64,000 bases of DNA from Siphonodentalium dalli. Its lineage: Eukaryota; Mollusca; Scaphopoda; Gadilida; Siphonodentaliidae. Each line of letters begins with the position of its first letter. Position 1 is the stretch's first letter. The stretch covers positions 136,403,990-136,467,989 of the forward strand of contig CP136067.1 of assembly GCA_032622095.1 (NCBI GenBank). The letters are read 5' to 3'. The notes below the pieces were generated by a model. The model was not told the DNA's origin and searched no databases. It was given only the letters and a program-made list of their open reading frames with translations. Below, piece after piece: positions 28,661 through 61,375 of the stretch. The position numbers were made by a program, and so were the translations under genes.

Positions 28661-29900
28661 TGGTACTGTCGTAATGTAGTTTGGGGGAAGCGATATATGA
28701 TTTAATGAACATATTGTTTTGTTTTGTTTTTTGCACAATGGTATTGGCTATCTGCATTGGGAGACAACATCGTTGTCGTGGTACGTGTGTCCGCAGAGAA
28801 TCGCGATCGATTTATGGTATGGGGCTCTTTCAGAAAACACAGGTGCGCGGATAGCAGCCCGCACGTTTTTGACACATTCCAGCTTAATTAATTTCCATTG
28901 ACCGACACTTTGAATGCATTAAGTCCCTCTAAACTAGTTTGTTTAATTAGACCATAGGATTCAACAATACAATGGATAAATATATATCTGAGAAAACAAA
29001 CAATTATTTGAAAGTTTGAGAACATTTTCTCAGTAACACGTTAGCGCTGCATGAGACAAATAGCCCTATCGTGACATTTTACAGTTATATCCTCCGCTGA
29101 CCCTAGTTGTACATGCAGATGCGTCTGGAATGTTAACGCCAACGTGCGTTGTTCCCATATATGGTGAGAAAATAAAGGAAGTTGTAAATAAATGTTTTTA
29201 TCGATACATAAAACGTAACAAGACTAAACAAACAAAGTTGAAAAATAATCGATTTAGAAAAGTTATAACATAACGAAATGCTACTACTTTCAATAGAATA
29301 TCTTTATTTCACATCTATATGTTAGAGAGTTTTTGCACGACCACAAGTACGATACTGAGGATCTCTAATGAGTCGCAATTCTATACGAAATTTATTAACC
29401 AAGCGCATTAAATTCGATTCGAGCCCAGCAATAGCGAGACTCGAATCGAATTTAGTGGACGAGGTTAAAACAATTCGTATATAATTTTGACGAAATTGAG
29501 ATCCATTTTATCACATGATCACATTTTAGCAAGGAAAAACGATATCGAAACGGCTCAGTTAAACAAAATAAATACTGATTTCCTTATCACAACCACAGTA
29601 AAGTAAAGTAAAGACACCTTCAAGAAAAAATATGGTTCCATTTTAAATGTGTTTTTTTTCATGTTGACAACATTGTTCACCCACTCTGTGCATCCAGTCA
29701 ACACTAAATAACCCAACACAAATATATACATATATATGATAAAATATATTTACTATATAAAATATCTAACTACATGTATGTTCACACTATAGGCACGTGC
29801 ATGTAACACATATATATATGAATTAGATCATGCCATGAATTTATACTCTGGTTAAGATAGATAAGATAAATTTTATTTAAAAGTCGGAGGTATTTATATA
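28661..29900. other. No gene recognised
   Basis: AT-rich intergenic sequence between the two genes. A small palindrome near 29406-29452 is built on AATTCGATTCGAG / CTCGAATCGAATT. No open frame has a known domain. Confidence 0.4.
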
Positions 29901-29901
29901 G

Positions 29902-29984
29902 AATACACCCATAGTAGCCGAGAATAACAAATTTTCACCACGAGTGGTGAATTGTTTTTAATTCTCGGCTACTATGGGTGTATT
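29902..29984. repeat. 83 bp near-perfect palindrome
   Basis: AATACACCCATAGTAGCCGA and its inverse TCGGCTACTATGGGTGTATT flank ACCACGAGTGGT. Related half-sites (CTACTATGGGTATAA, TATACCCACAGTAGG) recur at 30570-30720. It can form a cruciform or a hairpin RNA. Confidence 0.8.
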
Positions 29985-32900
29985 TTGTTTATACCATAAT
30001 TATTATTCTTCGGTCGCTTCGTAAATGTATTGCTACTGAGCTACTCTGTGGTGACTGTTAACATGTATGTGCACCGAGTGACCCAAATATGTTAAGCTAT
30101 CATGAATGTGGGTCACGCGTAGTAATACATATTTCTAGGAAATTCGGTGATCCGCCACTTTCTTGGGCATCAGTCAGCTGATGTGAACACACATTCAGAT
30201 TTCCCACATTGCAGATACCATTAACAATCTATACGTTGTAGTAAAAATATAAGCCGTCGTTCGCTTTAAACACGGAAAGGCAGACGAACACGTGCGTTTG
30301 TTTTGTTTACATTTTCAACAGCTATCGCCGACCTGTATAAAACGTGTACTTTGTCGGTGTATGCACCTAGCATAAAACATCTTTAAACTAACTTCAATAT
30401 GTCATTTTTTGACAAGTAAACCCAGTAAATGCAATTGGACAGTATATATATGTGTGTTTAGACCACTTATCGCATTTCAGTGTGTTTTGAGTCGGAAAAA
30501 TTGTGTTATTTACTTCGCGAAGCTAAATTTCGACAGCGAGGTCACCAGAGGTCAAATGACGGGTCGTTCTACTATGGGTATAAACTTTTAACACATAAAG
30601 TACCGTTGAAACATTTACACAACAGTATAAATTTATACCAATAGTAGGAATCGTTATACCCACAGTAGGGTGTAAAGATGAAATTTACAAAACAGGTGTT
30701 ATACACACAGTAGCATAGCCAGTTATGGTATAAAAAACATATTACAAGCGCTACGAGATTCATGGCATGATCTAATATATGAATATGAATACATATAACT
30801 CATATGGATATCTTAGCTATGATAACCCTTTCTATACTAAATTGATTCTCCCATTCAATTATAAATTTAGACATTTGACCAGTCTATTATTCATTTAGAG
30901 GGGTGTCCATGTAGTAAAAGAAGATGGCAGAGAGAAACACAGATAATACACTAGCACATTGATTCATATTAATTGGTGGGAAATGATCAGATAATAAGCA
31001 CAACAGTGTTGAACTTAATTATTATCTGAACAGTTCCTAAGGGAACTACTTGTCGATGATTATATAGTATAGAAAGGGCAGGGACGTGGCGACAGGGTGA
31101 TGGTGGTGGTGGTGTGTGTGTGTGGGGGGGGGGGGGGGGGTCACACCAAGTTTGGTCAAAATTTTCAATAGTTTGAAATTTAATATCTGACACGGTATTA
31201 GTTGTAAATTTCACACCAACAATAGGTTGAATTTTCAGCCAAATTTCTCTCTCAACAATATCGCAGCGAATGAACAGTCTTCCAACAAAACTCGTTGTGC
31301 AATCTTTTGCGCCAGCTTTGTTATTCAATAATATTACTAATATATGCCTCTCTAAATGATAATAACAGGATGACTTAATCGGTCCATCGTAACAACATTT
31401 AAACTAGTTGAATGCTAATTGAGTTGCTTATCGTGTGCCGTCATGATTAATCATTATCCTAGACAAAATATATGTACATGTATGATAGCGAATTAGTGCG
31501 ACACTGAGTTTGAATAATTTGCGTGAAATATGATTTTGGATTATCCCTCTTTTATCAAATTCACAAAACGGTAAAGGTCATATACCACTAGTATAGTGGT
31601 ATACCACTATAATCGTGGAATTCAGGATGTGTCTGACCTGTTATATACACATATCATGTTTATTTTGTAATGGTTATTATATACATAAATACAAATCAAT
31701 ACAAACAAAATCAATACTCGCCTTTGTTACATAATTTTGTATCGGTCACGTATCATTACATATATATTTTTAAACAAAACAATCACAAAAGGTTACACAT
31801 CATGTGCTGACATACCCCAGGGTGCCAAACTGAATCATGGGCAGGACGGAAACCAAATTAAAAATAAACAAAGATGACTAACTCTAGAACGAAAATGAAA
31901 CTGTAAAATATATTTGTTTCAAAAGTTCAGTCCATATGTCCATGATATAATATCTGAAGATCATGAGAGGAGACTTAATGTTGCTTGATTTGCGAAATTT
32001 AATGATTATTTTCAATTAGAGAGACAACTACCGATATTTAAAATAAGTTTCTATATTTGAGAATGTTCATGTCATGCCTGTTGATCAATGCAAAATTGGG
32101 GTTCTGGGTCAATGGGTCATAACAAAGTTATAGTTGACTACCATATCTCTTAACACTATGGCCTATAATTCCAGTTGATTGCTCCCTGCTTGAGTGGACC
32201 ACATTACATAACAACATTTGTTTTCATTGGGCTGGACTATTGGTGACTGCTTAATTCTTCATTATAATATATCGGGGTATGATGCTATATAATGCAATGA
32301 AAAATCTAACTCAGCATTATAATACAAATTAAGACTCCTTTCACAGAGCCACAGCAATACGCTATTTTGTGATTGGAGTGTTGTGTGATATTATTAATTG
32401 TTCTGGGCAGTTCTTGGAACCGAAAGGGACAAAAAGAAAATAATATGTTCAACATTTAAAATGTATAAAACTGTATTGTTTTAATCGTCTCTTAATAATT
32501 GCTCAGATTCTATATACAATGAAGATGATATGTGAAATTCACGATTTTTCGCCAGATAGATCCAGATATATACTTTGTTGAAATCTCTTGCCATTTCTGG
32601 CTGGATTTATGCAAAACGTGTGTCTCCCCTAAAGGGTACGTTCATATATACGCTGGCAAGTTTGCACGGTATGTTTTTGCGGTCATTTCGTCATAGAAAA
32701 TCACATTGTGCCATAATATGAAACGGAAGTTGTGCACATAGCATACATCTTTACCAAAGCGAAAAGACATGAGAAGTAACATTTATCTAGTTCTCACTTT
32801 GTAATATTGCTACTGGAATTTGCCTTCAAATACCTGTATGATTTATTCTTGCGAGATAATTGCATGATATTAACAGGAAAATTCCGGTAGCATCGTTACT

Positions 32901-34334
32901 AGTGGGAACTATAGAGATTTTACTTCTCAGGTAGTTAGCTGTGATGGCACAACAGATGCATTTTATGTGCTTGTTTCCGTTCAGATAATGGCACCAAATC
33001 GTTTTTCTTACGACAAAATGTCTGCAAACCATACCGTGCAATCTGTCCAGTGTAAGGTGTGTCGGGTCTTTGTTGTGTATAATTGTGAGGCGAATTGGTC
33101 ACTTGTGAAAGTGATGATGTTGAAATGAGTATAGCTTTTATCTCTGAGCTATACAGATGAATTTCTGTCAATCACCAGACAAGAGAAAAATGGACTTTTC
33201 CAACGGACGGTATAATCCAATCAAACGCATTGCAGTTTATGCTTTCCGCAGGTAAGCTATTCAACATGTCTATACCATGTGATACTATTTGAACCAATCG
33301 TTGAACATCGACATGTGAAGTGCAACTATATTTGGCAGCACCACTTCAAAAGTTTGTGTAACCAGTTTTAACTTATTGATCAAGACCATGCACTCTGTCC
33401 AAACTGACAATACAATTGATGCCTATTAGACTGATACCATGTGTAAACAAACATCTCAATATCTATTGATCTTTATATATCTTGTACTCCACTAAATATC
33501 TGACTAATTTTGTATCAGGGACATGTGCGATTGATCAAATGATTGAGGGTGTCACCCAACCCCCCCCCCCCCCCCCCCCCCCAGAGTCTGAATCCAGAAT
33601 ACCAGTTAATGATGCACAATCCGAATTCACGCTCCAAAATTACTATTTCTTTGGGTTCAGGGGGTATAAAAAAAATACTTGATTCGAGTCGATGAACCCA
33701 CATATCAAAGCTCAGAGTGATCAGATATCGAATTTTTGAAATATATTATATTTCACCACCTGGTATATTTGGCGGCCTGGCAAATATTCTAAAAATGCCG
33801 ACCGACATACCCTTAATATAAAATTGCGTTGAACAAACGAACAAAATGTTGATATATACTTTTAAGGCAATTTTATACTATAGTTAACAGTGGTTGAAAT
33901 TTATTTTTTTTGGTCAAATAATCGATTCTGATAACAAACGACATTTCAAGAAATGGCGTTGCTGTTGTTGTTGTTGGAATTTGATGATATGGGGACAATC
34001 GAATAGGATTGTGTACCTACAGATGGGGGTGAATACAGAATACCATTGAACAGATGGGGGTGAATACTGAATACCATTAATACAACTATGTGATGAAAGA
34101 CACTGTATAGATTTCAGACTTCATTATAAATTATAACATTTATAATCGTCACTTTTCTCAATACTGATATGCCAAACTGTACAGCATTAAGCGAAAAAGT
34201 CCTGATAGCTTCATATTAATTACAGCGCCCGATTAACAGACTGAGACCCAGAAAAATGATTAAAAAGGGCTTAACTTGTTCATTCGAGCAATCAAATACC
34301 AAAAGTTATCGTCAGCAAAGTCGCGTACGAGTCT
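29985..34334. other. Intergenic stretch with scattered repeats, no gene recognised
   Basis: It holds GT/G-rich tracts at 31100-31140, a short end fragment of the Harbinger-like repeat near 32634-32665 (GGGTACGTTCATATATACGC), a poly-C run at 33561-33582, and at 33630-33765 a decayed half of the TTAA MITE found at 41288-41711. Short frames are unsupported. Confidence 0.45.
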
Positions 34335-34340
34335 TTTATT
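34335..34340 (-). terminator. Candidate polyadenylation signal of gene 1
   Basis: The first AATAAA seen on the minus strand after the gene 1 stop lies about 395 nt downstream of it. If used, the 3' UTR would include the entire palindromic MITE at 34391-34643. Inference only. Confidence 0.35.
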
Positions 34341-34390
34341 TGAATGCCGAATATCATTTATGACGGCGGTATGAATCCTGAATGTATGTG

Positions 34391-34643
34391 CAGTAATGCC
34401 CTAAATAATCGACTCCTTAACCACAGCAGAATTATTGGTAATTTTTCAGGATTTAGTCGGAAATATGGCTTGTTGCCATTCATCGGAAAGCTCTCAGTGC
34501 GGAAATATGTCTTGTTGTCATTCACCGGAAAGCTCGCACTGAGAGCTTTCCGATGAATGGCAACAAGCCATATTTCCGACTAAATCCTGAAAAATTACCC
34601 ATAATTCTCCTGTGGTTAAGGGGTCGATTATTTAGGGCATTAC
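34391..34643. mobile_element. 253 bp palindromic MITE in the 3' flank of gene 1
   Basis: The two ends CAGTAATGCCCTAAATAATC and its inverse GATTATTTAGGGCATTACTG begin arms of about 105 bp. Each arm contains TTTAGTCGGAAATATGGCTT and CATTCATCGGAAAGCTC, or their inverse. The arms are nearly identical. It begins 89 bp beyond the gene 1 stop codon. Its 65-70 codon frames are repeat translations. Confidence 0.85.
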
Positions 34644-34732
34644 TGTATGTATGCATCCCATGTCCCGACTAAAATGGCATGAATTCCGCCGGGGAGTGAC
34701 ACCCTCAGGTTGGTACATGCTGTGATTTTGTC

Positions 34733-34931
34733 TCAGCCGAGAATCAAGTTGATAAGAATGGCCCCCACCATCACACAGTATGACATGAAGGTAGTTTTGC
34801 TAGACATAGAAGACACGTAGTCTTTGATTCCTTCACAGTTAGGGTTGATCTCTTTGATGATTTTGTGTACGTCGTCATCCAATTTGCAATCCTTGAACTT
34901 CTTCGCGCAATCAGCTGCTTCTACGTACACC
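34733..34931 (-). CDS. Gene 1, last exon: half cysteine module plus hydrophobic C-terminal tail
   Basis: The acceptor TTCTTCTTACTGATTTCAG ends at 34932. The exon supplies 1 nt, then 65 codons, then TGA. The pattern DCAKKFKDCKLDDDVHKIIK followed by EINPNC aligns directly with the 56.7 kb exon (SCAQHFNVCGLDEKIKEVIM then EFRPDC), with identical cysteine spacing C-x6-C-x16-C. After it come a serine-rich stretch (YVSSMSSKTT) and a hydrophobic tail, CVMVGAILINLILG, ending at the stop. This fits a GPI-anchor signal or a short membrane anchor. The 1-nt entry matches the 2-nt exit of the exon at 40158. One palindromic MITE starts 20 bp from the acceptor and another lies 89 bp past the stop. Confidence 0.8.
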
Positions 34932-34952
34932 CTGAAATCAGTAAGAAGAATG

Positions 34953-35332
34953 CAGTAATGCCCTAAATAATCGACTGCTTAAAAACAACAGAATTATGGG
35001 TAACTTTTCAGGATTTAGTCGGAAATATGGCTTGTTGCCATTCATCGGAAAGCTCTCACTGAGCCATATTTAGTCGGAAATATGGCTTGTGGCCATTCTT
35101 CGGAAAGCTCTCACTGCATGAGCCATATTTAGTCGGAAATATGGCTTGTTGCCATTCTTCGGAAAGCTCTCACTGAGCCATATTTAGTCGGAAATATGGC
35201 TTGTTGCCATTCATCGGATAGCTCTCACTGAGCTTTCCGATGAATGGCAACAAGCCATATTTCAGACTAGATCCTGAAAATTTACCCACAATTCTGCTGT
35301 GGTCAAAGAGTCGATTATTTAGGGCATTGCTG
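34953..35332. mobile_element. Palindromic MITE, expanded copy, abutting the gene 1 last-exon acceptor
   Basis: Same family as 34391-34643. The left arm has internal tandem copies (about three) of a ~55 bp piece with GCCATATTTAGTCGGAAATA. The right arm has the inverse motifs and ends near GGGCATTGCTG. Its edge is 20 bp upstream of the last-exon acceptor, so it supplies the sequence where the branch point would be expected. Confidence 0.8.
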
Positions 35333-35384
35333 TATATTGACCCTGCTCGACAACCCAATGGTTTGAGTGTCCGAATTGTAATCA

Positions 35385-36543
35385 CCCCTGGTCAAGTGGT
35401 CCTGCTAGTCTGATATGATGTTGGTGGGTCCTGCTGAATTGCTATGATGCTGGTAGGGCAAACTGATGCCGTTACGAAATAGTACCGTTGTTTTTTGTCT
35501 AAATTAGTCATTTTCGCGGTGATTGGCTAATTGAGAAAAACAACCCAGTGTTTGTTTGAACCAATCAAGAACACAATTAGTGTTGAAAAATTCAACAATG
35601 GCTGAGTTGCACACTCTTCCAACGGTCGGTAATCTGATACCATACTTGGGACCATTTTACGGCAGCTCATACCTTAATTTGAAATTTTTAAATGACATAG
35701 TGAAATTACGGTACAATCTGCGTTATATTTCTCTAGACACATGGTTATTTGTTAGGTTATCTGATATAATTGTAAAAAATTAACATCTGCGCTGATGCAG
35801 CATTGAATGCCAGTGCATTCTCTTATATAGTCTCGCATATATACGAGAATGCACTGGCTTACAAGGTCAAGGTAAATATTGTTAGGCGGGGCTTAAAATC
35901 TGACAAGAATCAGGATTCTTAGTTTGATTCTCGTGAAAGCAGCTGATTCGCTGTAGAAATGATATATTTTGATTCTCGCAAAATGTTATGGGTTTTAAAG
36001 CATGCATGTTAGGCCGCCAATGTATTCTCCTGAATATGCACATGGGCCTGTAACGCGCTCCGCTGCACGTCCCGCCCCCTTGCGCTGCCCATATACGCCG
36101 CTTCTATATGTACGCGCCTGCTTCATAGAGAATATTATACTATCATTAACGTGAAGCAGGCGCGTACACATGGAAGCGACGTATATGGGCAGCGCAAAAG
36201 GGGGGCGGGCAGCGGAGAGCGTTACAGGCCCCTGTGTGTATATGCGAGGCTCTATATGTTTGCAAAACCACGTGATTAACCATATTGATTGTAGTCAAGT
36301 TGTAACAACTAATGCAAACAGTATTAACATATTTCACAATATATATGTTGTCGAATGTTTGATATACACATAATGGCCTTTACTATAGATATGTTCATAT
36401 TATCCGAACACCACGAACATGACTACTTTAGAAAACATAACGGTACTTTTTCTTAACAGCATCAGTTTTACCTAACAGCATCATAGCAATTCAGCAGGAC
36501 CCACCAGCATCATAGCACATCAGCAGGACCACTTGACCAGGGG
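35385..36543. mobile_element. CCCCTGGTCAAGTGGTCC MITE, copy 2, with nested insertions
   Basis: The ends CACCCCTGGTCAAGTGGTCC and its inverse GGACCACTTGACCAGGGGTG are nearly perfect. GTAAT flanks both sides and is a possible 5 bp target duplication. Relative to copy 1 it has about 650 bp of extra sequence, including a small palindrome (35806-35862, GTGCATTCTCTTATAT type) and the GC-rich palindrome at 36047-36236. Confidence 0.75.
36047..36236. repeat. GC-rich ~190 bp palindrome
   Basis: TGTAACGCGCTCCGCTGC and its diverged inverse GCAGCGGAGAGCGTTACA frame arms with TGCGCTGCCCATATACGCCG and GAAGCAGGCGCGTACA. Loop of about 25 bp near 36136. Markedly more GC-rich than its surroundings, and nested in a MITE. 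Confidence 0.75.
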
Positions 36544-37103
36544 TGGTAATGGTGTCGCCGCATCGGCATGAATTCGCTACCGCCACACTCATGTAACCTC
36601 TGACTAATACTCTTCCTATATATCATACAATGGTTTTACCACCAATTTCCCACATATCTTCTAGACAGATAATAAACGCTTTTTATTGATCATCTATTAT
36701 TTATATCCCCCCTCCTTAAGTCAGCTGATGTCAAAGGTGAGTAAGTAATGCTTTATTCTCAGCCAGTATATTCATGGAACATTATGTCAAACGTTATACT
36801 CAATACGGTATTTGAAAGCAGTTAGTTGCATTTATTTATTTTTTTCTAATGCGAAAAAAAGTAATTAAAAGGGACTTGAGTCCAGCCATTGCTGCTGAAA
36901 ATAACCTAATGAGCATGAGTCACCTCGTATCTGATCATAACAACGTTGTCTGCGTTTTAGAGTTTTAAGTTACTGTTCTTGACAGATACCGGTTTCTGTT
37001 GGTCGATGTTACAGTAACTGTTTATAAAAAATGGTCTCACCATGAGCAATCTTGTCACTGGACGATTTTTGATAATGAAAATAAGAAATAAGATTTGTAT
37101 GTG
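36544..37103. other. Gene 1 intron, no feature seen
   Basis: AT-rich intronic sequence with no open frame, repeat or exon I can support. Confidence 0.4.
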
Positions 37104-37107
37104 TTTT

Positions 37108-39202
37108 CTACGGCGGCCTGGAACCGCCACCTCCTCTTCAGTTAGTATCCTGATATATCAGGTTACCTATCCTGATATATCAGGTTAGTATCCTGATATA
37201 TCAGGTTACGTATCCTGATATATCAGGTTATTATCCTGATATATCAGGTTACGTATCCTGATATATCAGGTTACGTATCCTGATATATCAGGTTATTATC
37301 CCGATATATCAGGTTATGTTTCGACCAATCCAGAGTGTTTGGTTGGATTCTTGGTCAATATTGTTAGGCCAATGTATGCTCTTATATATGCGAGGCTACC
37401 AGTAGGAGACTCGCATATATAAAAGAGTTCATTGGCACAGGTTTTTGCAAAATTTCAAGGAGCCCCAGTCATGGAAGTGTTAGCAAGAACCGAACCATCC
37501 ACTGAGCGATGACCAGTCCATTATTAACCCTTTCTATACTATATAATCATTGACGAGTAGTTCAAATGAAAGTGTCAATGACACTGTAGCTCAACGTTGG
37601 GAGGTGTTAATTTCATGCTGAGCTGTCAATAGAATGATAAAGGACTCCCATAGAAGAAGGAAAGTCAAAAAGTTACAATAATGTACGCAATGGGCTTGTA
37701 TTCTGTAGATGATATTATTATACCCCCCTTTTTAAAACAAAGGGGGTATACTGTTTTGCACCTGTCCGTCCGTCCGTGCGTCTGTGTGTGCGTCCGTCAG
37801 TACGTCCGTCCGATGTCTGTTCATGTCATAACTTTAACAGTAGTGCTCAGATCTCAATGAAATTAGGTATGGATGTTCACTACTATGAGGACATTATATA
37901 GGTGGTTCCATTGTTCCATTCTAGAGTTATTCATCTTTGTTTATCTGGAAATGTTGGCTGTTTGGTCCATCCGATGTCTGTTCAGGTCATAACTTGCACA
38001 GTAATGCTCGGATCTCAATGAAATTTTGTATGGATGTTCACCGCTATGAGGACATTTAATGGCACATTCAACCGTTTTGTTTTGTTTTTTGTTCTATAGT
38101 TATTCATCTTTGTTTATATGAAAATGCTGATTTTTTGGGTCCAATCTGTCTGAGTATAGCATTCATAAGTTATAGATATGCCATCAATAGGCGGTAATCC
38201 ACAAGGGGGCATGCACCGGACGACAGTCCATCTCTTGTTTTCATTTAAAACATTTCACCAATAAATGAGGGATGCATGGTGTGCGAATGAAATCATGCTG
38301 GCGGCCATGTTTTCTTTTCATGAATTTCGTAATAATTGGATACCTCCCATGTTTTTCAATGACATTTTTGGTGGCTCCAATCTCCCAGAAGATCCATATG
38401 AAATTCAGTAAGGACTATATAAAGGATGTGGTCTGTATTGTGTGCCAAATCATTTAGTCATACAAAGTTTAAAATGCAAAATGACGGAAATGCTTTCAAT
38501 TAAATTCGGAAACATTTGATATCCCCAGAGGTGACCCAAAACACGTCTGTATAAAGTTTTAAAATATTTGTTCCGATATTTGTTCTGCTGGGTGAGCCAA
38601 TGGATCCAAATTTGAAATCCAAGATGGCTGATGGCGGCCATGTTTTCTAACGAATTTCGGGAAAAATAGATGGCTCCCATCTAGAGTTCACCCTGAAGAT
38701 CCATATGAAGTTTGGTGAGGGGTGTGTGGTTAATCGCCTACATGTAGATGCCACATCACTCATCCTCGTCGTCACCAAACTTAATATGGAACCAACCACA
38801 AGCCTCCGCCAATGAGAGACGACATTCTGGATTGGTCGAGACAACCTGATATATCAGGATACATAACCTGATATATCAGGATACATAACCTGATATATCA
38901 GGATAATAACCTGATATATCAGGATACGTAACCTGATATATCAGGATACGTAACCTGATATGTCAGGATAATAACCTGATATATCAGGATACGTAACCTG
39001 ATATATCAGGATAATAACCTGATATATCATGATACGTAACCTGATATATCAGGATATGTAACCTGATATATCAGGATAATAACCTGATATATCAGGATAC
39101 GTAACCTGATATATCAGGATACTAACCTGATATATCAGTATACGTAACCTGATATATCAGGATACTAACTGAAGAGGAGGTGGCGGTTCCAGGCCGCCGT
39201 AG
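37108..39202. mobile_element. 2.1 kb TIR transposon with subterminal palindromic tandem repeats
   Basis: The ends CTACGGCGGCCTGGAACCGC and its inverse are flanked on both sides by TTTT (37104-37107, 39203-39206). After the first ~37 bp, both ends carry tandem ~20-22 bp units built on the palindrome CCTGATATATCAGG, about eight on the left and sixteen on the right. The shared TIR then continues with GACCAATCCAGA / TCTGGATTGGTC. The interior has a 69 bp palindrome (37369-37437) and a CCGTCCGTCCG-rich segment after GGGGGTATACTG (37743 on). No transposase is recognisable, so it is non-autonomous. It lies in gene 1's last intron. Confidence 0.8.
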
Positions 39203-39234
39203 TTTTCGGCTGTATCCATCGTGGATGCCTTGTG

Positions 39235-40157
39235 GCACTTTGATTATAATTTATAAGGTACTTACGGGCACATTTGATGTGAATTTGCATGGTACTTACG
39301 GGCACATTTGATGTGAATTTGTATGATACTTACGGGCACATTTGATGTGAATTTGTATGATACTTACGCACTTTAATGTGAATTTGCATGGTACTTACGG
39401 GCACTTTAATGTGAATTTGCATGGTACTTACGGGCACTTTAATGTGAATTTGCATGGTACTTACGGGCACTTTAATCTGAATTTGCATGGTACTTACGGG
39501 CACTTTAATGTGAATTTGCATGGTACTTACGGGCACTTTAATGTGAATTTGCATGGTACTTACGGGCACTTTAATGTGAATTTGCATGGTACTTACGGGC
39601 ACTTTAATGTGAATTTGCATGGTACTTACGGGCACTTTAATCTGAATTTGCATGGTACTTACGGGCACTTTAATCTGAATTTGCATGGTACTTACGGGCA
39701 CTTTAATGTGAATTTGCATGGGACTTACGGGCACTTTAATGTGAATTTGCATGGTACTTACGGGCACTTTAATGTGAATTTGCATGGTACTTACGGGCAC
39801 TTTAATGTGAATTTGCATGGTACTTACGGGCACTTTAATGTGAATTTGCATGGTACTTACGGGCACTTTAATGTGAATTTGTATGGTACTTACGGGCACT
39901 TTAATGTGAATTTGCATGGTACTTACGGGCACTTTAATGTGAATTTGCATGGTACTTACGGGCACTTTAATGTGAATTTGCATGGTACTTACGGGCACTT
40001 TAATGTGAATTTGCATGGTACTTACGGGCACTTTAATGTGAATTTGCATGGTACTTACAGGCACTTTAATGTGAATTTGCATGGTACTTACGGGCACTTT
40101 AATGTGAATTTGCATGGTACTTACGGGCACTTTAATGTGAATTTGCATGGTACTTAC
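39235..40157. repeat. 33 bp minisatellite made from the splice donor of the adjacent exon
   Basis: About 28 units of 33 bp (36 bp for the most distal ones). On the minus strand each unit reads GTAAGTACCATGCAAATTC, then ACATTAAAGTGCCC. The distal units read ACATCAAATGTGCCC. The exon at 40158-40275 ends CAAATGTGCCC followed by GTAAGTACCATGC, so the unit is the exon's last ~11 nt plus its donor and ~20 nt of intron. GTAAGT is present in essentially every copy. Because 33 is divisible by three, frames of 314 (plus) and 277 (minus) codons stay open through the array. In the reading frame of the exon, the first read-through codons give CCG TAA, a stop. Confidence 0.9.
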
Positions 40158-40275
40158 GGGCACATTTGTTCCTTGGATGGAGATCCGATCGATGTGTTGA
40201 ATTGGTCGATTTTATCACGTCCACAGGCCTTTGCGTTATTTTGCAAGCATGTCATGGCTGTCTCATCGAAAAACA
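40158..40275 (-). CDS. Gene 1 exon: first half of third cysteine module
   Basis: The acceptor ATATTCTTCATTTACAG ends at 40276. The donor is GTAAGTACC at 40157. The exon gives 2 nt, 38 codons and 2 nt, exactly the phases needed between the exons at 43070 and 34733. It reads FFDETAMTCLQNNAKACG, then RDKIDQFNTSIGSPSKEQMC. Its C-x7-C-x20-C aligns with C-x10-C-x20-C of the 60.0 kb exon. With the last exon it completes a module of C-x7-C-x20-C-x8-C-x6-C-x16-C. Its donor has been expanded into the 33 bp array. A LINE fragment begins ~10-25 bp upstream of the acceptor. Confidence 0.8.
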
Positions 40276-40284
40276 CTGTAAATG

Positions 40285-40590
40285 AAGAATATACCCATTA
40301 AATTATGCCAGTTCTATAAAATGTTTATAAAAATGACACCACCATACCTCTATACATTAGTCCCAATATCAACAGAAAATATGCATCGATATCCACTGAG
40401 GAAGCATCACTTGGACAACCTGTCTTGCGATTCTGCGTCATATGATAAGTCCTTTCTCCCTTCATCGATGGAGTTGTGGAACTCACTCTCAGCTAACATA
40501 CGAAATTGCACAACATTACCTGAGTTCAAATTAGCTATCGGCAGCACTGATAATAACACTAGGGAACCCTACATCTATCACTGTTATTAG
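40285..40590 (+). pseudogene. LINE ORF2 C-terminal fragment
   Basis: The plus strand reads a run of PPYLYTLVP, HRYPLRKHHLDNL, YDKSFLPSSMELWNSLSANI and LPEFKLAI. This is the standard tail after the reverse transcriptase of several LINE clades (LVP...YPLR...SF.PS...WN.L...I...FK). The catalytic domain is missing (5' truncation). It is antisense to gene 1 and lies directly against an exon acceptor. Confidence 0.75.
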
Positions 40591-40729
40591 CGCACGCACC
40601 GCGTGTATACCGTTCTCCAATTTTTTGATAGCTGTGGTCCTATGGGCATTTTATTTATAGATAATTTGTTTTTCCGGTTTAAAAGTCGAACTGCGCGACC
40701 AGGAGGCCGAGTCCGGTAAAAGGTGCAGT

Positions 40730-41075
40730 TTGGAATTTCAATTTCGTTTATTTTCCTTTACAATTTTGGTTTGTGACAAGCTATGTCAATTACCAATAAA
40801 AGAAATTTAAAAGATATTAATTTTGTAAGTCTTATATTTCAACTTTTATAGATATTTTTCGTTCTGCAGCCCACTGATGGTTGTGGTCGGAGACGGCTGA
40901 GTCGGCCGCCGGTTCGTTAATTATGTGCTGGTTGTTATTGTTATTTTAACGGAGTTCTGAGTTGGTCATTCGCAAAACCAATATATTTTAAATTCTATAA
41001 TTACAATCATGGGTATATAATATATGATCTTGAGCGCGTTACCATTTCTGACTATGGTTTTCTTGTCATTACTCA
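40730..41075 (+). repeat. LINE 3' UTR-like dispersed repeat
   Basis: The segment from AATTTCAATTTCGTTTATT to CCGGTTCGTTAATTA recurs at 58296-58510 with about 80% visible similarity. It follows the LINE coding tail. The end ACCATTTCTGACTATGG with TTTTCTTGT recurs near 14735-14770 and 59680-59702. Confidence 0.65.
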
Positions 41076-41089
41076 TGCCCATCGCAAGT

Positions 41090-41240
41090 TCATCGCTGTA
41101 GGCTTCAACATGGGTGTAGTTTTCTTAATAAAGATATGTGCGAAAATCACCTAAGATCAAGTCCTTTATGTGCATGTGGAACAGAAGAAACGGCATCACA
41201 TTTTATATTCCATTGTCCGATGAACCGGAACATTTAGAAA
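41090..41240 (+). pseudogene. LINE finger remnant
   Basis: The plus strand reads DMCENHLRSSPLCACGTEET followed by ASHFIFHCPMNRN then a stop. This is the C-x-C...H...C finger found near the C-terminus of LINE proteins. It is cut on the right by the MITE at 41288. Confidence 0.7.
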
Positions 41241-41287
41241 TTTGACTCTCGAGTCTGCACTGAAAGGAGCAATCACAAAAAGCTTAA

Positions 41288-41711
41288 AGGTACTCAATCC
41301 GATCAGACGCTCCTAAATTACTATTTCTTTGGCTTCGAGGGTTAAAAATATTTGATTCGAGTCGAGGAACCACCCATCAAAGCTCAGAGTGATTAGATAT
41401 TGATTTTTGAAGTTTGTTATTTCTCGAGATGTGCACCAATAATTGGCACAGAAACACGATGTCAAACGGACAAACTGCGGATGGAGATGGATAACTCTAA
41501 ATCAAGTGGTAATGATGACGCAATTTTGACCGAGACCATCCTTTTGACGGCGTGTTTCTGGGCCACAAACAATAGAAATAATAAACTTCAAAAATCGATA
41601 TCTGATCACTCGGAGCGTTGACGGGTAGGTTCCTCGGCTCGAATCAAATATTGTTTACCCCCGAAGCCAAAGAAATAGTAATTTAGAAGCGTCTGATCGG
41701 ATTGAGTACCT
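41288..41711. mobile_element. TTAA-flanked MITE with ~140 bp TIRs
   Basis: AGGTACTCAATCCGATCAGA at the left is inverted at the right end (CTGATCGGATTGAGTACCT). TTAA flanks both ends (41284-41287, 41712-41715). A TA duplication reads equally well. The arms share TAAATTACTATTTCTTTGGC and AAGCTCAGAGTGAT / ATCACTCGGAGCGTT. Related halves lie at 33630-33765 and, inverted, at 54100-54235. Non-coding. Confidence 0.8.
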
Positions 41712-41715
41712 TTAA

Positions 41716-42399
41716 GTGAAAACATATCTACCTTTAATATAGTTAAGAAATTTATAACTTTTTCAGAACGTTTTTCCAACTAAAATTATGAAGAAGCAGC
41801 CAATAATGATATAACCGCGACATCGAAGTACTAAGTGCATTGATTACACATATTGCTCTCATTGTTCTCATTCAATCCAAATTTACACATAGCATGATAA
41901 ATTAACGTATATATTCCCTGCATCTAAGAAGCACGTCTGCCAATTGGGGATTTATAGAAACGAAACTAAAATTAAATAGAATCTAAGTTTCTATAGAAAT
42001 TTGATAATAAATAAACTTTCCAGAGAAGATGAGGTCTAAGCATAATGAGGTCCCGAGAGGGTGAATGCTATGAGGGATAGCGTCACCAAATTCACACTCT
42101 GGGGACGTATTATACAATACAGCGGTACATATATGTACACACATTTACGAAGACGAAGGAAGACGGCCTGTTTTGGCCATGCCACCCTGCACATGTAAAT
42201 TTGTATACATATATGTACCACTCTATTGTATAAATGTGCAAATAAACATTCAAACATTCTGCAAATGACAGGCACACTAAAAATGTATGTAGGTGAGAAT
42301 GACTCTATAGCCTATCATCAACGACCAACGTGCTCAGTGTGTGGTCGCGTTTTCCAATACATTTGAAACTATTGCTAAAAGAGAGAGAGAGAGATAATC
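41716..42399. other. Gene 1 intron, no feature seen
   Basis: AT-rich intronic sequence with a GA microsatellite near 42381-42395. The 79-codon minus frame at 42036-42275 has no domain. Confidence 0.4.
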
Positions 42400-42900
42400 A
42401 TTTATTAACGTGACATGTGCAATACATAAATCATCAATATATACAAAATTAAATTACAATTAGCACCCGGCCCATAGGGCCTATATGTCATGCTTAATAG
42501 TATAAATATGTACATGGTTTGGTCAAACACATGTGGACTATACTCAGTGATGATAATAAGAGGATATAAAGTAGAGAATTTCATTTTAATCTTAAACAAT
42601 TTGGAGATATTCGGGTTTATATAATTATTTTGTATTCTTATATGTTCATACGTTTGGTGTGTAATTCACGTGTATATTAATCGTTTTCTTCGCATAAAAG
42701 CATCAAAAAGAAATTTTGCTAGCTGTCGGGGAAATGAAATTAGCCCCATAAAAAAGTCGTCGATGTGGTCTGTTTTAAACATGTCGCTAATATATCTTGG
42801 GACGGAATTTAAAGGAGACATCCGGATGTCATTGTAAAAAGGGACAAAACAAAAGAACATGTTTTTCGTCTTCAACTTTGAACTTATAGATTGCAATAGA
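42400..42900 (-). pseudogene. LINE C-terminal fragment
   Basis: The minus strand shows EDEKHVLLFCP, then (after a frameshift in a T-run) FYNDIRMSPLN, and further on LAKFLFDAFMRRK. This matches the finger, YNDIR and LAKFL-AF segments common at the C-terminus of many molluscan-type LINE proteins. It ends in AT-rich 3' sequence and a CT repeat. Same orientation as gene 1, in the intron just 3' of the exon at 43070. Dead copy. Confidence 0.65.
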
Positions 42901-43069
42901 GTGTGATTAACTTTGGTTGATTGATATTATATATTTATGTCGTAAACATCTAAATTGAGATGTTTTGATAAAATGGGGTGTGTTTTGAGGGGAAATTTCA
43001 TTTAACATGGTGACAAGTACGACGGCCTATATGTGTTTTCTACATATATATTCTGATATGATTATATAC

Positions 43070-43227
43070 CGTATTTATTGTCATCCGTCTTGGCACAAAC
43101 TATTTTGAAAGCTTTCATAACACCATCGATGTTTATCATGTTGTTGATGTCTGAAGCGTAGCTGGTGCAGCCAGTACCAGAAATGGTTTCACTCAAACAC
43201 TGCACAGCCGAGTCGACAGCAGCTTCT
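43070..43227 (-). CDS. Gene 1 exon: second half of second cysteine module
   Basis: The acceptor is GCCTGATTTTCACAG before 43227 and the donor GTATAT at 43069 (weak but usable). The exon gives 1 nt, 52 codons and 1 nt. These phases complement the 55.5 kb exon (2-nt exit) and the 40.2 kb exon (2-nt entry). It reads EAAVDSAVQCLSETISGTGC, then TSYASDINNMINIDGVMKAF, then KIVC. Cysteine spacing is C-x9-C-x23-C, looser than the C-x6-C-x16-C of its sister exons. Helix-rich and polar, with no membrane segment. The intron upstream of it holds the 9.1 kb Polinton. Confidence 0.75.
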
Positions 43228-44682
43228 CTGTGAAAATCAGGCAATGAATGGAACAGTATATTTTGATTGAATGCTCTGGAGTGGATAGTTGGTAAATCAA
43301 GGACTGTTGCACCAATACAAAGCCTAGGCATGCTTTATTTTAATCACGACATATCGTATAGCAGCACATGCGACGGCTTTAATATCTTTGCAGTACACAA
43401 CGGTCGGTCACTGGACCTCAATGGACAACTTACATTGGCGTTATAATATATTTTCTAAATTGATACTGCTGTGTCTTGGTGTGTGATACCACCCCAACCC
43501 CACCATATTGATCGCGGCGACTTGAATCGAACCAAGTGTCCGACTTATACTTATTGTCTCAACAATTGGATATTTGTAATATCCAACGGTTGGATATTTG
43601 ATATCCAGTTGTCACACTCAGACACACAACGCGTGTGTCAATTACGCATTAAGACTAAGCCTATTCGTCAGGATAGACTCCTGCTACAAACAATGGATGA
43701 CGCCACGAAATGTTCTAACAAAGACCAAACAGCATTATTGCTCATCGCAATCGCCGAGACATCGCCGACCAAAATCGAAATCACCATAACATCGCTGCGA
43801 TTATGAGTGAAGTTGATTAATACCATGCACATGTAGTGTCTTAAGGAATCACTGAACTAAATGGTTTCCCATAGGCGACAGTGTTAACGTTTCGACCGAA
43901 TTCTCTGAATTGAAGGCTACAGGCTATTCCAGCGGTGTTTACCCAGCTAGATTGACACCAGTTGATCACGAAAATGCAAGAAAAATCAAAGGTCATGTGT
44001 TTACTTTTTAAATAAATCCTCAAGTTTACGACAGGGCTATCCCACAGCCAAATTTGGTCTTAAAAAACCCAGAACTACAGCAGCTAGTTAAATAAATTTC
44101 CCACTCACAAAATTCCATTTCCCCATTAATTAACCAGTTTAAATTTCATCCTTTAATAACGTGTCACGTGTATCAGGTGAAGGTCATTCTTCAGTTACCT
44201 TCACCTTTAGCATTCCACGGTGTACTCGCTCCCCGACTCTAGAACACATTTAGCTCCCTGATTCCTACTGACCTTATCGACATGAAAAGTAATCACATGA
44301 CTTACTATCGACATGTGTTCGCTCACGTGATACCGGCTTGTTGATTTGTATACAAATAGCACCGCTGTCGTAATTTGTTTGGTTAGAATCGCCCTGGAAG
44401 CTGAGCAATTACGCTTGAGCAATTTGCCTCACGGGTCTAGAAAATATCAAACATTCGTGATATGCGAGCTCGATTGCTCAGAGCAATCAGACATCATATA
44501 AATGCCGCGCACACGTGTAGCCAAATTACTCAGAGACCGATAGCTCAGCAATCAGACTCTGTTGTGCGACGGCCTTTATGGTATCAATGACAAACTACTT
44601 AGAAAATGCACAATTCCAACAGTTGATTAAATGCGCAGCGAGATCTATGCAATTACTTAAAGGCCCACACAGTTTTCGAATG
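43228..44682. other. Gene 1 intron, no gene recognised
   Basis: Mostly single-copy AT-rich sequence. A short palindrome built on ATATCCAACGGTTGGATAT lies near 43579-43597. Short frames, including 111 codons at 43471-43806, lack domains. Confidence 0.4.
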
Positions 44683-44688
44683 CCCATA

Positions 44689-47600
44689 AGTAGTACGTGG
44701 GTCGAACTCCTTGACTTCAATCGTAAAATTGGGCATAAGTGTATTTTGAGTATGTTAGTACTATAGTACTATATATATTTGAGAATCGTTGATAAAAATG
44801 GGCGTAAGTATATTTTCGATAGAGCAGGTCGCCAGAGCGTCATGTTGATGTGTTTATATTTTTGGTGAAGTTTTTTTTGTTTGTAATCTCGGCCGACTAT
44901 TGCGTGTCTGACACATAAACTAAATAATCTCAGCTAAAGACGGCTTAACCAAATTATTCATAGAGCAGGTCATCATATTTGAGCGTCATGTGTATATTGT
45001 TGACTAACAAGTTGGTCGATCGTGATTATTTTCAGTAAGATGTATGCGTGTCTGACACATCAACCGAATAATCTCAGCTTAAGACGGCTTAACCAAATTA
45101 TTTGCTTAAAGGTTCAGACACACATACATCTTACTGTATTTTGAGTAACAGATGAATATTCCTACCTACTGGATAGTGCGTATTCATCCGAAGAAATGTC
45201 TGACGATTCCGGAAACTGGGATTAAAAAAATGAACACTTTAAATATTGTATATCCTACCATATGTGAACTTGAATTATGTCATCACCAATAAATACATGT
45301 ATAATCGATTATCTTTTCAATAATAATATCTCTCTGGGTTCTATCGTGGTAAAAAATCTTTTGTTTGACAGAGATTTTCCATTCAATGTTTGTCACAGAC
45401 CTACGTCGTAATACTCCCCTCCCCCAACACCCCCTACCCCAACCACCTTCCCATCTCACATCACTTACCCGCAACTAATCATGCGCGTATATATTGTACA
45501 ATGTGTACGTGTCGGAGCACAAGACATCCAAATAAGGAGTATTACCTCATAGTAAAGCAACGCTCTTTATTCATCTTTCAACATAAATGACACACGTGCA
45601 TTATTGCGAATTATTGGAAGAGCGTACGTTTATAGAGTTATTGTTCTTAGAACGAGAATCGTTAGTCCTGTAACAGCACTGAATCTGGCGAGGTTTGCCG
45701 AATGCTATGCACCCGTGTCAGCTAAATCCACATTAAGCATTCAATTTTGAATAAGGTTGATTTGTTTTTCAAATTTAATAGTGTTGCTATGATGAGGCTG
45801 ATCGAAGAAGAAAAATAAATTCGTTTTATTAATTTGTCAATTCTATTCCAACATGGCGGCCACCACTGGGGGCCCATAGGTCTGAATCGCCCGGATGTAA
45901 AAACAATTTTTTTCATGTTGACGGAGTATAGAAATTAGTGACGTCACAACTATACTTGCGTCGCTTACGCGTGGAATAAAATAGTCACGGGCTATTGAGA
46001 AGTATGGCCTTGAACGTAAATAATAAAGCGCGTTATCGAATCTATGTTACACCATAACCGCGGGTTATTGTAATATAATGAAGATTTTCCACTGAGTTTT
46101 ACCACAGAACTACGTGATAATACCCAAATCAAATCAGTTGTCCGTAAAGAAAAACCAACCAATAACCAAGATGACTTGTCCGTAACTAAATGCAAAAGAC
46201 CTCAAACGTTGAAAAAGAATTTCATACCGAATATAAGTAATCTCCCAAACTTCTCAAAACACGGCCATAACATCAAATTAGTTTCACGGGTTGCATGTAT
46301 GATCACCCGTACACGTCAGCAGCTTGTCGCGTTAATACTTCACCTGTACATATAAACGGCTTATTGAGTTATGCATACATATAGTACGTCACCTGGACAT
46401 TTTATCAGTTTATCACGTGATCACTAAATGTGGCAATCGGGTGTCCGCAGATGCCTGCAATGTATTATTTATAATAATTGGACTCATTGATATCACGTAA
46501 ATAATACTCTTAGTTGTTCCAATAAAATAGTTATCAAATTCGATCAGCAATAGATTTGACTATGGAATATAACGACCTTTAACTTATTTATCGATCTATG
46601 TTAGAACATGGTCTTAACAAAAAAACATGACCATAACAAAAATTACCTTACCTTTATGCATGAATCTAATTTGACCATGCGTAAATATTGTCAGCTTATC
46701 GTCTGATGAGCAAATCCGATGTTTACATACTTAAACTGAGGTATGATTGTATTATGTGTACATGTATATAAGGTCATAGCGTGACGAGCAAAATGTGATG
46801 TTTACACACTTAAGCTCTGGATAAACAATACATATCGCATCTGCAGCAGTCTACTTCATTGTGAATTAAGTCACTCTGGGTTAGTTGACTACAAACCTGT
46901 TACACCACATCATTGGGTTATTGTAATTTAATGAAAATTTTACACGGAGGTATCGTGATTGCTTTCAAAAATAGTACAACTTCCCGTTTGTAACACATGG
47001 ATGAAGATCGTTTAACGCATACGAAATTACTACACGACTGAACGGAACCTTGAAATTTATATTTCACATCTTCCCAACAACAGATACAGACATAGTGTTA
47101 TACTGTCTTGTATGTACACACGCTATGACATAATTAAAGGGGGCAATACACTCAAGGTGTTGCATGTTAAAGAAACACGAGGCAAGGGACGTGATGCAAT
47201 ATTGGTGTGTGAATATTAAAGGAACACAATGCACTGTAAAGGAACAAAAGGCACTCATTATGAATGAATGTTAAAGAAACACAATAAACGCATTGGTGTT
47301 TGAATATTAAAGGAACACAATGCACTCTAACGGGACACAAGACACTCATTGTGAATGAATGTTAACTATACAAGCGCAGTGATTGACAGTTAAAATGACA
47401 CACAACAATATTTAAAGTTCAAATTTTCGGGCTCTTAATGCGCCTTTTATCATTACGTATCGTTTCTCACTCTACAATTCCCAATAATCCACTCACTCTC
47501 TCCCCGCTTATAGATATACAACGAAAACGAGAATATCATGTTGATGAAGTTTATTGAAATTTAATCGTTGTCTGAATCTACCGCCCATTCATTATTATAT

Positions 47601-48052
47601 CCGTGTTTGGTCAGTTTGACCATTTTCTTCATGATCATGTTATGTATGGGTGATGTTTTCATTCGATGCTGGTATTCTATTAACAACAACGACGATGATG
47701 ACGACCACAACAACAACAACAACATCTACTTTTGGGGGGGTGGGGCAAAATAACATGACACCGCCGTTGCCGCCGCCGCCGTTGCCGCCGCCGCCCCCGC
47801 AGTAAAATAACATGACATGTGGTACATAATACATTCGTTGTATTATATTAACTATTCACTGTCACTTTCACCGGATTTGTCATCACTTTCGTCAGAAGTG
47901 TCATTTGTTTCGTCCATGAATTTTTCTAGCATCGGTTTGTACTTTAATATTGACATTTTCACTGCATCACGATCTTCATAACCATTATTCAAATATTTGT
48001 TGACGTGTGACACCATGGATAGATTGACCAATGACTGCTATTGTATCTTTTG
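44689..48052. repeat. Left terminal inverted repeat of the Polinton
   Basis: It matches 49824-53788 in reverse complement over its whole length, from AGTAGTACGTGGGTC to CTATTGTATCTTTTG. Inside are tandem units of the AGGAACACAATGCACTC type (47160-47370) and a GC-rich CCGCCG microsatellite (47760-47800). Its inner end carries an inverted copy of the last part of the zinc-finger gene. Confidence 0.85.
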
Positions 48053-48331
48053 ACAGATATGCGTGCCCAGACTCGTTTGATGTTCGCTATCGCATTACTA
48101 TGTTTTAATAGCCGAGACTTCACTTCTCGTCTGACTCTCTTACCGACAAGACCTGTTGATTCCCTGTCTACACAGTGCTTCTCCGGCAGACTATTTCATC
48201 TACATAAAGTTATCAAACATACGGACTTCTGATCTGAATTGACAATGACGTCAATACAGGACAGATTTTAGGTTATAAGGAACAATTGTATAAAGTAAAA
48301 CCATATACCGAGACAGTTTAGTCAAGTATAA
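48053..48331. other. Left part of the Polinton unique core
   Basis: Leader region before the ATPase gene. A 63-codon frame at 48041-48232 has no recognisable domain. Promoter elements for the ATPase would be expected here, but I cannot identify one with confidence. Confidence 0.35.
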
Positions 48332-49465
48332 ATGAAGCACCAGTGTTCAAATTGCTCTAGTGAGTATGTGCGGAACCATGATTTGATAAGACATGTACAA
48401 TCTAAGCACACTGAATTTGTTAATCGACACCCACAGCAGCAGTACCAAGCAGCAGCAACAAACAGCAGCAGCAGGCAGCAGCATCATCAGCCACAACAAC
48501 AGCCATTACAGCAACACCAGATACTACAACACCATCAGGGGAAACAGCAACAAAGAGACATAACATCCTGCTTTGATGATCCAATGGCCAATGTCCAAGA
48601 AAATTTTATTTTCAAGCATCCATTCACGGCATTCGTAAGTGGACCGACATCTAGTGGGAAGACGTACTTCGTGAAAACCTTGTTACAAAAGTCTGCCTCA
48701 AAAATATCACCTGCACCTGACAGAATAATATGGTTTTATAAATATTGGCAGCCCCTATATGACGAAATAAAATATACCGTCACCCCTCAGGTCAACTTTA
48801 TACGAGGAATACCAGAAAACTTGGATTCTCTTATCAACCCTCGGTATAAAAATCTAGTTATACTCGATGACTTGATGCAAACTTCATCAAAAGACCAGAG
48901 AGTTAATGATTTGCATTCCGAAGGAAGTCACCATTTGAACTTATCTTTGATAAGTTTGAACCAGAATTTCTACTACAACAAAGATCCAACGCAACGACGA
49001 AATTGTCAATATTTGGTATTGTTCAATAACCCAATCGACAAGGGATTAATTTCAACATTATCAAGACAGATGTATCGTGAATGTCCTCAGCGTATGGTGC
49101 GAGAGTTTTCGGAAGCGACGAGTGAACCGTACGGTTACCTACTGTTGGATTTAAAAGCCGCAACACCGGACACATTACGTCTGCGACAGAATGTTCTAAA
49201 AGAGGGCACGAACCAACATATGGGTGAATGGAATGGCATGAAATACGATGACAGAGAACATCCAGATAAACAGAATGGGATGAAATATTATACCAACAAT
49301 ATTCAGGGTCAACAGAATTCGATGAAATACGATGACAGAGAACTCCCTGGTCAACAGAATGGCATAGCATATAATTATATTGTGCCCCATGGTCAACATA
49401 ATGGCTATACTAAGGACATAAGGCCACCTGGTGAGCTCGATGAAATTAATAAGAAGAACCGTTAA
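48332..49465 (+). CDS. Packaging-type P-loop ATPase (A32-like) with N-terminal C2H2 finger
   Basis: A 377-residue frame, intact from ATG to stop. Residues 5-26 form a C-x2-C-x12-H-x4-H finger (CSNCSSEYVRNHDLIRHV...H). Residues 34-75 are a Gln/His-rich linker. The ATPase core starts near residue 92. Walker A is GPTSSGKT (104-111), Walker B is LVILDD (175-180), and a sensor-like segment SLISLNQNF lies at 205-213. This layout fits the FtsK/HerA-related DNA-packaging ATPases of Polintons and related DNA viruses, which drive genome packaging into capsids. The finger and Q-rich linker are additions whose role is unknown. The C-terminal 90 residues contain repeated NGMKY-DD-E segments (about 10-25 residues per unit). 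No capsid gene accompanies it, so activity here would need partners elsewhere. Confidence 0.85.
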   Translation: MKHQCSNCSSEYVRNHDLIRHVQSKHTEFVNRHPQQQYQAAATNSSSRQQHHQPQQQPLQQHQILQHHQGKQQQRDITSCFDDPMANVQENFIFKHPFTAFVSGPTSSGKTYFVKTLLQKSASKISPAPDRIIWFYKYWQPLYDEIKYTVTPQVNFIRGIPENLDSLINPRYKNLVILDDLMQTSSKDQRVNDLHSEGSHHLNLSLISLNQNFYYNKDPTQRRNCQYLVLFNNPIDKGLISTLSRQMYRECPQRMVREFSEATSEPYGYLLLDLKAATPDTLRLRQNVLKEGTNQHMGEWNGMKYDDREHPDKQNGMKYYTNNIQGQQNSMKYDDRELPGQQNGIAYNYIVPHGQHNGYTKDIRPPGELDEINKKNR

Positions 49466-49486
49466 AACATAGACATTCGAGAAGAC

Positions 49487-50030
49487 ATGTCGTACCCTTG
49501 TAATGACTGCGGGCTTTTGTTCGAAGATCATTATGATGTTCAGAGACACGTAAAAAACTGGTGTAAAGAAAATAAGTTAAAACGAAAATTAACTGAGGAT
49601 ACGGATGATAGTCAGAATAAGAAAATTAAATTGAATGAAGATGAATACTTCAAAAGTTTGTGTGATGAGAGTAGAGATAAAGCACATGAGGAATGGAGTG
49701 ATAAAGTGGAAACGTATAAGGAAAATGGCTCAACAGAAACAGAAGCAAAATACAAGCTGACAAGGACCTTAAAAGTAAAGATATGAAGCAATTTATGAAT
49801 GGTTATGCTAGGACAATATTAGCCAAAAGATACAATAGCAGTCATTGGTCAATATATCCATGGTGTCACACGTCAACAAATATTTGAATAATGGTTATGA
49901 AGATCGTGATGCAGTGAAAATGTCAATATTAAAGTACAAACCGATGCTAGAAAAATTCATGGACGAAACAAATGACACTTCTGACGAAAGTGATGACAAC
50001 TCGGACGAAAGTGACCAAACACGGATATAA
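49487..50030 (+). pseudogene. Polinton zinc-finger protein, frame-broken
   Basis: The frame opens 21 bp after the ATPase stop with a zinc-finger-like segment (C-x2-C-x12-H-x4-C: CNDCGLLFEDHYDVQRHVKN then WC). A Lys/Asp/Glu-rich middle follows. The first frame stops at 49786. Continuing homologous-looking sequence is found in a second frame from an A-run near 49775 (DMKQFMNGYARTILAKRY), and in a third frame from about 49845, which ends in an acidic DESDDNSDES tail at 50030. Two frameshifts therefore separate one apparent gene of about 180 residues. Its 3' part lies inside the right TIR and is mirrored at 47870-48050. Sequencing error is an alternative explanation. Confidence 0.55.
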
Positions 50031-54584: not shown

Positions 54585-54660
54585 TTAAGTAAATATTTTT
54601 CTTGAAAATATAAGTGTTATCTACTCACTGTGGACAGGTAATGTCAGCGCTCTTTGTTAA

Positions 54661-55491: not shown

Positions 55492-55645
55492 TGTGGACAG
55501 GTAATGCCAGCGCTCTTGGTTAATATCATTGCAGACCCGCCCTTCATCATTGCCATCGCGCTCGTTATGCTTTCTTCTGTCTGAAATTCCAATCCCAGCT
55601 TTAAGGCCAGTGGAATGATGCACTGTGGCAGGTTGCATCCACTGC
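55492..55645 (-). CDS. Gene 1 exon: first half of second cysteine module
   Basis: The acceptor ATTCCTTCTTCTCAG ends at 55646. The donor is GTGAGT at 55491, the first of nine tandem copies. The exon gives 2 nt, 50 codons and 2 nt. It reads SGCNLPQCIIPLALKLGLEF, then QTEESITSAMAMMKGGSAMI, and ends ITCP. Cysteine spacing is C-x4-C-x40-C, longer than the x20 of modules one and three and closer to the x52 of gene 2 exon 2. A copy-like duplication of its own tail follows in the intron. Confidence 0.8.
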
Positions 55646-61372: not shown

Positions 61373-61375
61373 TTA

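Follow-up and report, generated by a model that had tools for sequence, protein, structure and literature searches.

Within the 64,000-nucleotide stretch of Siphonodentalium dalli DNA that was analysed (the window), a predicted exon ends in a donor junction of which tandem copies fill part of the next intron, where GTAAGT opens 28 of 28 successive units on the minus strand, the first at 40157 and the last at 39265. We interpret this array as a junction-seeded minisatellite, or mirage, that would have grown by near-neutral turnover, a reading to which we assign a probability of roughly 0.8. The array has company, in that the same gene has five visible exon ends, of which three are tandemly copied into the intron that follows. 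Overall, the array looks like a product of the turnover of repeat DNA, and not like splice signals lined up by design.

The gene runs along the minus strand and was modelled with six exons. The first visible exon, e3a (60022–60148, 127 bp), is the array-free paralogue of the exon at 40158–40275; it has an AG acceptor and a single-copy donor, CTC|GTAAGTAGCATACA, its end reading CTGTGCTC|GTAAGTAGCATACA, with the same phase and donor as that paralogue. It is followed by e3b (56649–56752, 104 bp, donor ACTG|GTAAGG), placed by its phmmer similarity to the terminal exon, its AG acceptor and its phases, and by e3c (55492–55645, 154 bp, donor CCACA|GTGAGTAG), placed by an open frame, an AG acceptor and phases that fit both neighbours. 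Exon e2 (43070–43227, 158 bp) has an AG acceptor, three cysteines, a phase that fits both neighbours and an array-free donor, G|GTATAT. The fifth visible exon, e1a (40158–40275, 118 bp), whose 3′ end seeds the 28-unit array, ends CAAATGTGCCC|GTAAGT and is supported by an open frame, an AG acceptor, its paralogue and its phases. The terminal exon, e1b (34733–34931), provides the acceptor of the array-bearing intron and was identified by phmmer, phase and its AG; it carries the stop codon and encodes a hydrophobic C-terminus that by eye resembles a GPI signal. With AG/GT ends, the six exons are in phase and together form a 285-residue frame that stops at 34733, the intron phases alternate 2, 1, 2, 1, 2, and in this model the frame is unbroken at all three array-bearing exons.

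Similarity between the exons themselves provides further evidence for the model. In a tblastn comparison of the e1a peptide with the window, the single other place below E 1 was 60146–60024, also on the minus strand (E 7e-5 to 1.7e-4). By phmmer, the joined e1a and e1b peptide matches 56766–56563 (E 1.1e-4), and the joined e3a and e3b peptide matches 34978–34736 (E 1.5e-4), the two first exons scoring E 0.015 and 0.0061 within those searches. The predicted exon e1a is well supported by these comparisons together with its splice sites and phases. The middle pair, e3c and e2, was placed by frame, phase, splice sites and cysteines, not by similarity; e2 has no phmmer match below E 2 among the other exons, and the cysteine spacing of e3c is unlike that of the other exons. 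The conceptual protein can be read as three two-exon cysteine-rich domains, the middle one presumed, followed by a tail that by eye resembles a GPI-anchor signal.

Database comparisons returned little. Pfam scans of the minus strand over 29302–39240 and 40162–49500 gave CEP104_N alone, at E 0.036 and far under the cut-off, and the conceptual 285-residue protein had nothing above the Pfam cut-off, its three weak matches reaching E 0.11 at best. The protein has no match in the PDB, and not one of the candidates drawn from the protein database (19 and 297) reached E 10. Over the window, no Rfam family reached threshold. A first exon with a signal peptide or start codon was sought at 60149–64000, where three distinct frames were found, none of them convincing.

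The array that adjoins e1a extends over 39234–40157 on the minus strand, as defined by TRF, the unit listing and the 28 GTAAGT units; TRF itself reports 39257–40163 with a period of 33, 27.5 copies and 97% matches. By donor position, 23 units measure 33 bp, one measures 31 bp (39398), three measure 34 bp (39367, 39333 and 39299) and one is degenerate (39265); the units were cut at GTAAGT, such that a donor-less unit would merge with its neighbour, and no unit length hints at one. The 23-mer GTAAGTACCATGCAAATTCACAT has 27 matches at ≤3 mismatches, all inside the array, compared with a mean of 0.00 in 100 shuffles. The unit has no match outside the array in the 64,000-nt window and none in viral contigs, nor does it match the genome contigs that were searched, although these comprise bacteria and archaea only and the comparison is correspondingly weak.

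Most of the array is homogeneous. Among the proximal 24 units, 17 equal the modal unit and the mean pairwise identity is 98.1%, as expected of recent turnover. These 24 units are marked by a C-to-T change that creates ATTAAA in the 33-bp unit, and the hexamer occurs 24 times in the array, alternating with GTAAGT in the amplified unit. The inner units read TTAAAGTGCCC before the donor, whereas the last 11 bases of e1a, CAAATGTGCCC, directly precede the donors at 39333, 39299 and 39265, the last of which belongs to a unit with six substitutions elsewhere and GTAAGT intact. A preliminary description of this DNA had reported an exon-end junction repeated about 28 times, with exon sequence kept in the distal units, and both statements are borne out. 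Its further statement, that GTAAGT is kept while the flanks vary, exaggerates the contrast, since the flanks are near-constant too.

The unit originates from the exon end, as the preliminary description had also proposed, and the single-copy junction at 60148–60022 supports this origin. Of the 16 bases beyond GTAAGT, the start of the e3a intron shares 11 with the array unit; among 62961 other positions on the minus strand, 119 show this agreement. Since this array-free paralogue carries the same junction and a similar intron start, the junction is most likely older than the array.

A second array of the same type is found at the donor of e3c, which ends ATTAACCAAGAGCGCTGGCATTACCTGTCCACA|GTGAGTAG and is followed by 0.4 kb of intron that repeats this junction (55061–55491 on the minus strand, from the unit listing and a TRF call at 55061–55526). 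The genuine donor at 55491 is succeeded by donors at 55439, 55387, 55335, 55283, 55231, 55153 and 55075, with 52-bp units adjoining the exon and then two 78-bp units. A stray ninth copy, recognized from the sequence and the unit listing, is located at 54606–54660 on the same strand (donor 54628), beyond other repeat DNA. GTGAGTAG is present in all nine copies, and changes of any kind are few there. The third array (56582–56671, minus strand; TRF and sequence) comprises approximately 2.7 copies of a unit of approximately 35 bp at the end of e3b, where CTGCACAACTG|GTAAGG is followed by two poorer copies. In copy two GT has become GC (GCAAGG) and copy three is donor-less, leaving one of the three with its donor.

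Both long arrays are polar with respect to the exon, as seen from six donors compared in each. In the first array, 11 exon bases precede the donor in far units and six in near ones (one at 39367, a cut unit), and in the second the identical exon bases number 43 in far and 35 in near units; the longest exon match extends over 11 bases in the first array and, if one mismatch is allowed, over 59 in the second. Unit length shows the same polarity, with 34 bp for far and 33 bp for near units in the first array and 78 bp and 52 bp, respectively, in the second. The exon-side units are short and uniform, and the outermost copies of both arrays have diverged. The polarity fails at the very end, since the outermost copy of the second array, the stray one, has 15 identical exon bases. 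Because the far units are exon-rich and the near units short and uniform, a shortened unit appears to have expanded at one end, and the active end would be the exon-proximal one.

We suggest that the array began as a tandem duplication of 34 bp across the boundary of e1a and its intron, made up of the 11 terminal bases of the exon and 23 intronic bases that include the donor, and that it subsequently grew within the intron by slippage or unequal exchange. Recent slippage was one of the two explanations in the preliminary description, and slippage or unequal exchange fits the arrangement of the units. The loss of one base would have produced the 33-bp unit, which was then amplified beside the exon and left the 34-bp and degenerate units at the far end. 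Splicing of the exon most likely still uses the first donor, and the other 27 would be decoys giving an immediate stop. The same process may have struck two more donors of the gene. DNA hairpins were considered as a cause of the instability and rejected, as three stretches of two units each were no more stably folded than their shuffled versions (z 0.58, −0.94 and 1.16).

Other repeats and elements are also present in the window. The intron between 55492 and 43227 contains an element at 44689–53788 with inverted repeats of approximately 3 kb (45051–48052 versus 52831–49824, 96.6%; also 44689–45112 versus 53788–53381). An ORF in this element, at 48332–49465, has zinc-finger-like and A32-like ATPase matches, the Pox_A32 match being just below the cut-off at E 9.7e-5. 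This transposon ATPase gene has 291 relatives; among the 120 listed, 16 are named by organism, comprising 14 bivalves (with Pecten, Mizuhopecten, Pinctada, Mytilus, Ruditapes and Mya among them) and two bacterial MAGs. These names point towards bivalves, although transposons can move between species. A probable foldback element is located at 37108–39202, its arms being arrays, in opposite orientation, of a palindrome-bearing unit, CCTGATATATCAGG. At 18047–26880, approximately 210 copies of a 42-bp unit leave several frames open for long distances; the plus strand carries 189 GTRAG cores and the minus strand none. Two arrays of 21-bp units, at 14829–15008 and 16637–16815, have a GTGCGCACGAATTA-like core in common and lie approximately 1.6 kb apart in opposite orientation, and the window ends in a tandem duplication of approximately 1.1 kb at 61729–64000 (61729–62815 and 62914–64000, 93%).

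The arrays of the gene fall on donors, with three of the five donors and none of the five acceptors of the gene model lying inside an array. In post hoc tests on seven TRF arrays that we chose (period at least 30, within the gene body), random independent placement hits three donors with P 0.0019, or 7e-5 for two-unit seeds, and plain coverage by the same seven arrays (9.1% of the gene) gives P 0.0066 for the five donors and 0.056 for all ten junctions. Plain coverage by all 19 TRF arrays (11.2% of the gene), likewise post hoc, gives P 0.012 and 0.093, respectively. Neutral turnover alone leaves this placement of three arrays at donors and not at acceptors unexplained. A speculative and rather unlikely explanation is that donor junctions, but not acceptors, are hotspots of minisatellite birth in this lineage, where a feature associated with the transcribed 5′ splice site, such as bound U1, an R-loop or a paused polymerase, might provoke local re-replication.

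It is improbable, in our estimation, that the repeated donors form a poison switch, whereby occasional use of a downstream donor would lead to an immediate stop, nonsense-mediated decay and lowered expression. The immediate stop had been pointed out in the preliminary description and is indeed present, since the codons read past the junction in the model frame are CCG TAA for the first array and CAG TGA for the second; in addition, 24 of the 28 donors of the first array (the genuine one counted) are identical from −3 to +8 to the genuine donor. However, the single-copy paralogue e3a likewise reads an immediate stop (S*). The stop thus goes with the phase-2 junction and is no sign of design. 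Moreover, the mirages of amphioxus Adh3 and globins are described as harmless to regular splicing in the available text of PMC3087553.

The preliminary description had also raised the possibility of a selected row of U1 snRNP sites, in which the donors would be maintained for exon definition or against premature polyadenylation in the 5.2-kb intron. We consider this quite improbable, even though GTAAGT is unchanged in all 28 units, including the last one with its other substitutions, and GTGAGTAG in all nine copies of the second array. When a one-base gap is placed by hand, distinct changes in the first array number 14, of which 11 are substitutions, with none in the six GTAAGT columns, for which an even spread gives P 0.066–0.118 (14 to 11 changes). 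Within the proximal 24 units, where four distinct substitutions occur, the absence of any in GTAAGT has P 0.46. A MAFFT-based count (18 distinct changes; P 0.030, and 0.014 on variable columns) would favour maintained donors, but this count was set aside, as the alignment is probably faulty, with a one-base deletion spread over several columns. The constancy of GTAAGT demonstrates neither selection nor its absence. Furthermore, the third array retains one donor in three copies, the other two donors of the gene, with introns of 3.3 and 2.8 kb, are array-free, and the unit introduces 24 ATTAAA hexamers, which would be odd for a suppressor of polyadenylation. U1 telescripting needs U1 sites within introns; intronic U1 sites are common to that system and to the present arrays, but there is no sign that the present ones act in this way.

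We regard as highly improbable the reverse order, in which an array of unrelated satellite DNA, or one belonging to a transposon, existed beforehand and lent its edge to the exon as a donor. The foldback element does end approximately 30 bases away from the distal side of the array, but the array-free paralogue shares the donor and resembles the unit at its intron start (11/16), the unit is without another copy in the window, and the gene shows the same behaviour at two further exon ends. We likewise attach a very small probability to an unreal exon with an accidental splice-junction match, which would account for a conceptual protein without a detected relative and for the start-codon exon not found at 60149–64000, but not for six exons that join in phase with AG/GT ends into a 285-residue frame, nor for the resemblance between the pair 60148/56752 and the pair 40275/34931.

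The junction-seeded reading has a close parallel in the mirages of amphioxus, tandem repeats across exon–intron boundaries that are described for Adh3 and for the globins BflGb6 and BflGb9 (PMC3087553), with mirage-like repeats in PGBD5 and a cited case in troponin C (TnC) (PMC3902484). Their units measure 10–72 bp in Adh3 and 150–160 bp in the globins (PMC3087553, PMC3902484). As far as the available text of these papers describes them, the mirages share with the present arrays units of exon plus intron sequence, many copies with splice signals and homogenized inner units. By our gene model, the unit here spans the exon–intron boundary and the bordering exon is intact, and many, but not all, copies keep their splice signals (28/28, 9/9 and 1/3). 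The same accounts also point to differences: the ends of amphioxus mirages deviate, whereas here the distal end alone does so; both kinds of boundary are affected in amphioxus (BflGb6 on the acceptor side), whereas the three arrays in one gene here are all at donors; and regular splicing and instability are reported for amphioxus, whereas the present arrays are known from one sequence alone. In addition, the host is not a cephalochordate, and here one array contains 28 donors.

Further parallels are provided by human genes in segmental duplications, where minisatellite units of approximately 30 bp can sit at exon–intron boundaries and bring cryptic splice sites into use; among the variable repeats of that study, half are coding and alter gene structure (PMC2812944), whereas the present repeats are intronic and the adjoining exon is apparently unchanged. 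Tandem duplication of AGGT-containing sequence, a route to intron gain treated in the discussion of PMC3087553, also multiplies splice signals, but here donors alone have multiplied, with no evident new intron. The earthworm metallothionein gene was considered as a precedent and rejected, since its repeats, as presented in the accessible part of PMC12783039, lie within an intron and not across a junction. Among the open-licence PMC papers searched, none described, in its title or the opening of its abstract, a mirage from a mollusc or any other non-amphioxus host. We regard the array at e1a as a mirage-type minisatellite of a known kind, probably in a phylum new to it, and notable for its 28 donors and for the presence of three arrays in one gene.

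Mirages would thereby extend beyond cephalochordates, and the presence of three in one gene suggests that exon ends become tandem repeats through a more widespread process. The bias towards donors (three of five, versus none of five acceptors) can be tested genome-wide, and 28 near-equal donors offer a natural setting in which to test the choice that the spliceosome makes between identical sites. If donor junctions were indeed hotspots of minisatellite birth, splicing itself would leave its mark on genes that carry several mirages, and decoy donors and new introns would arise from the arrays repeatedly.
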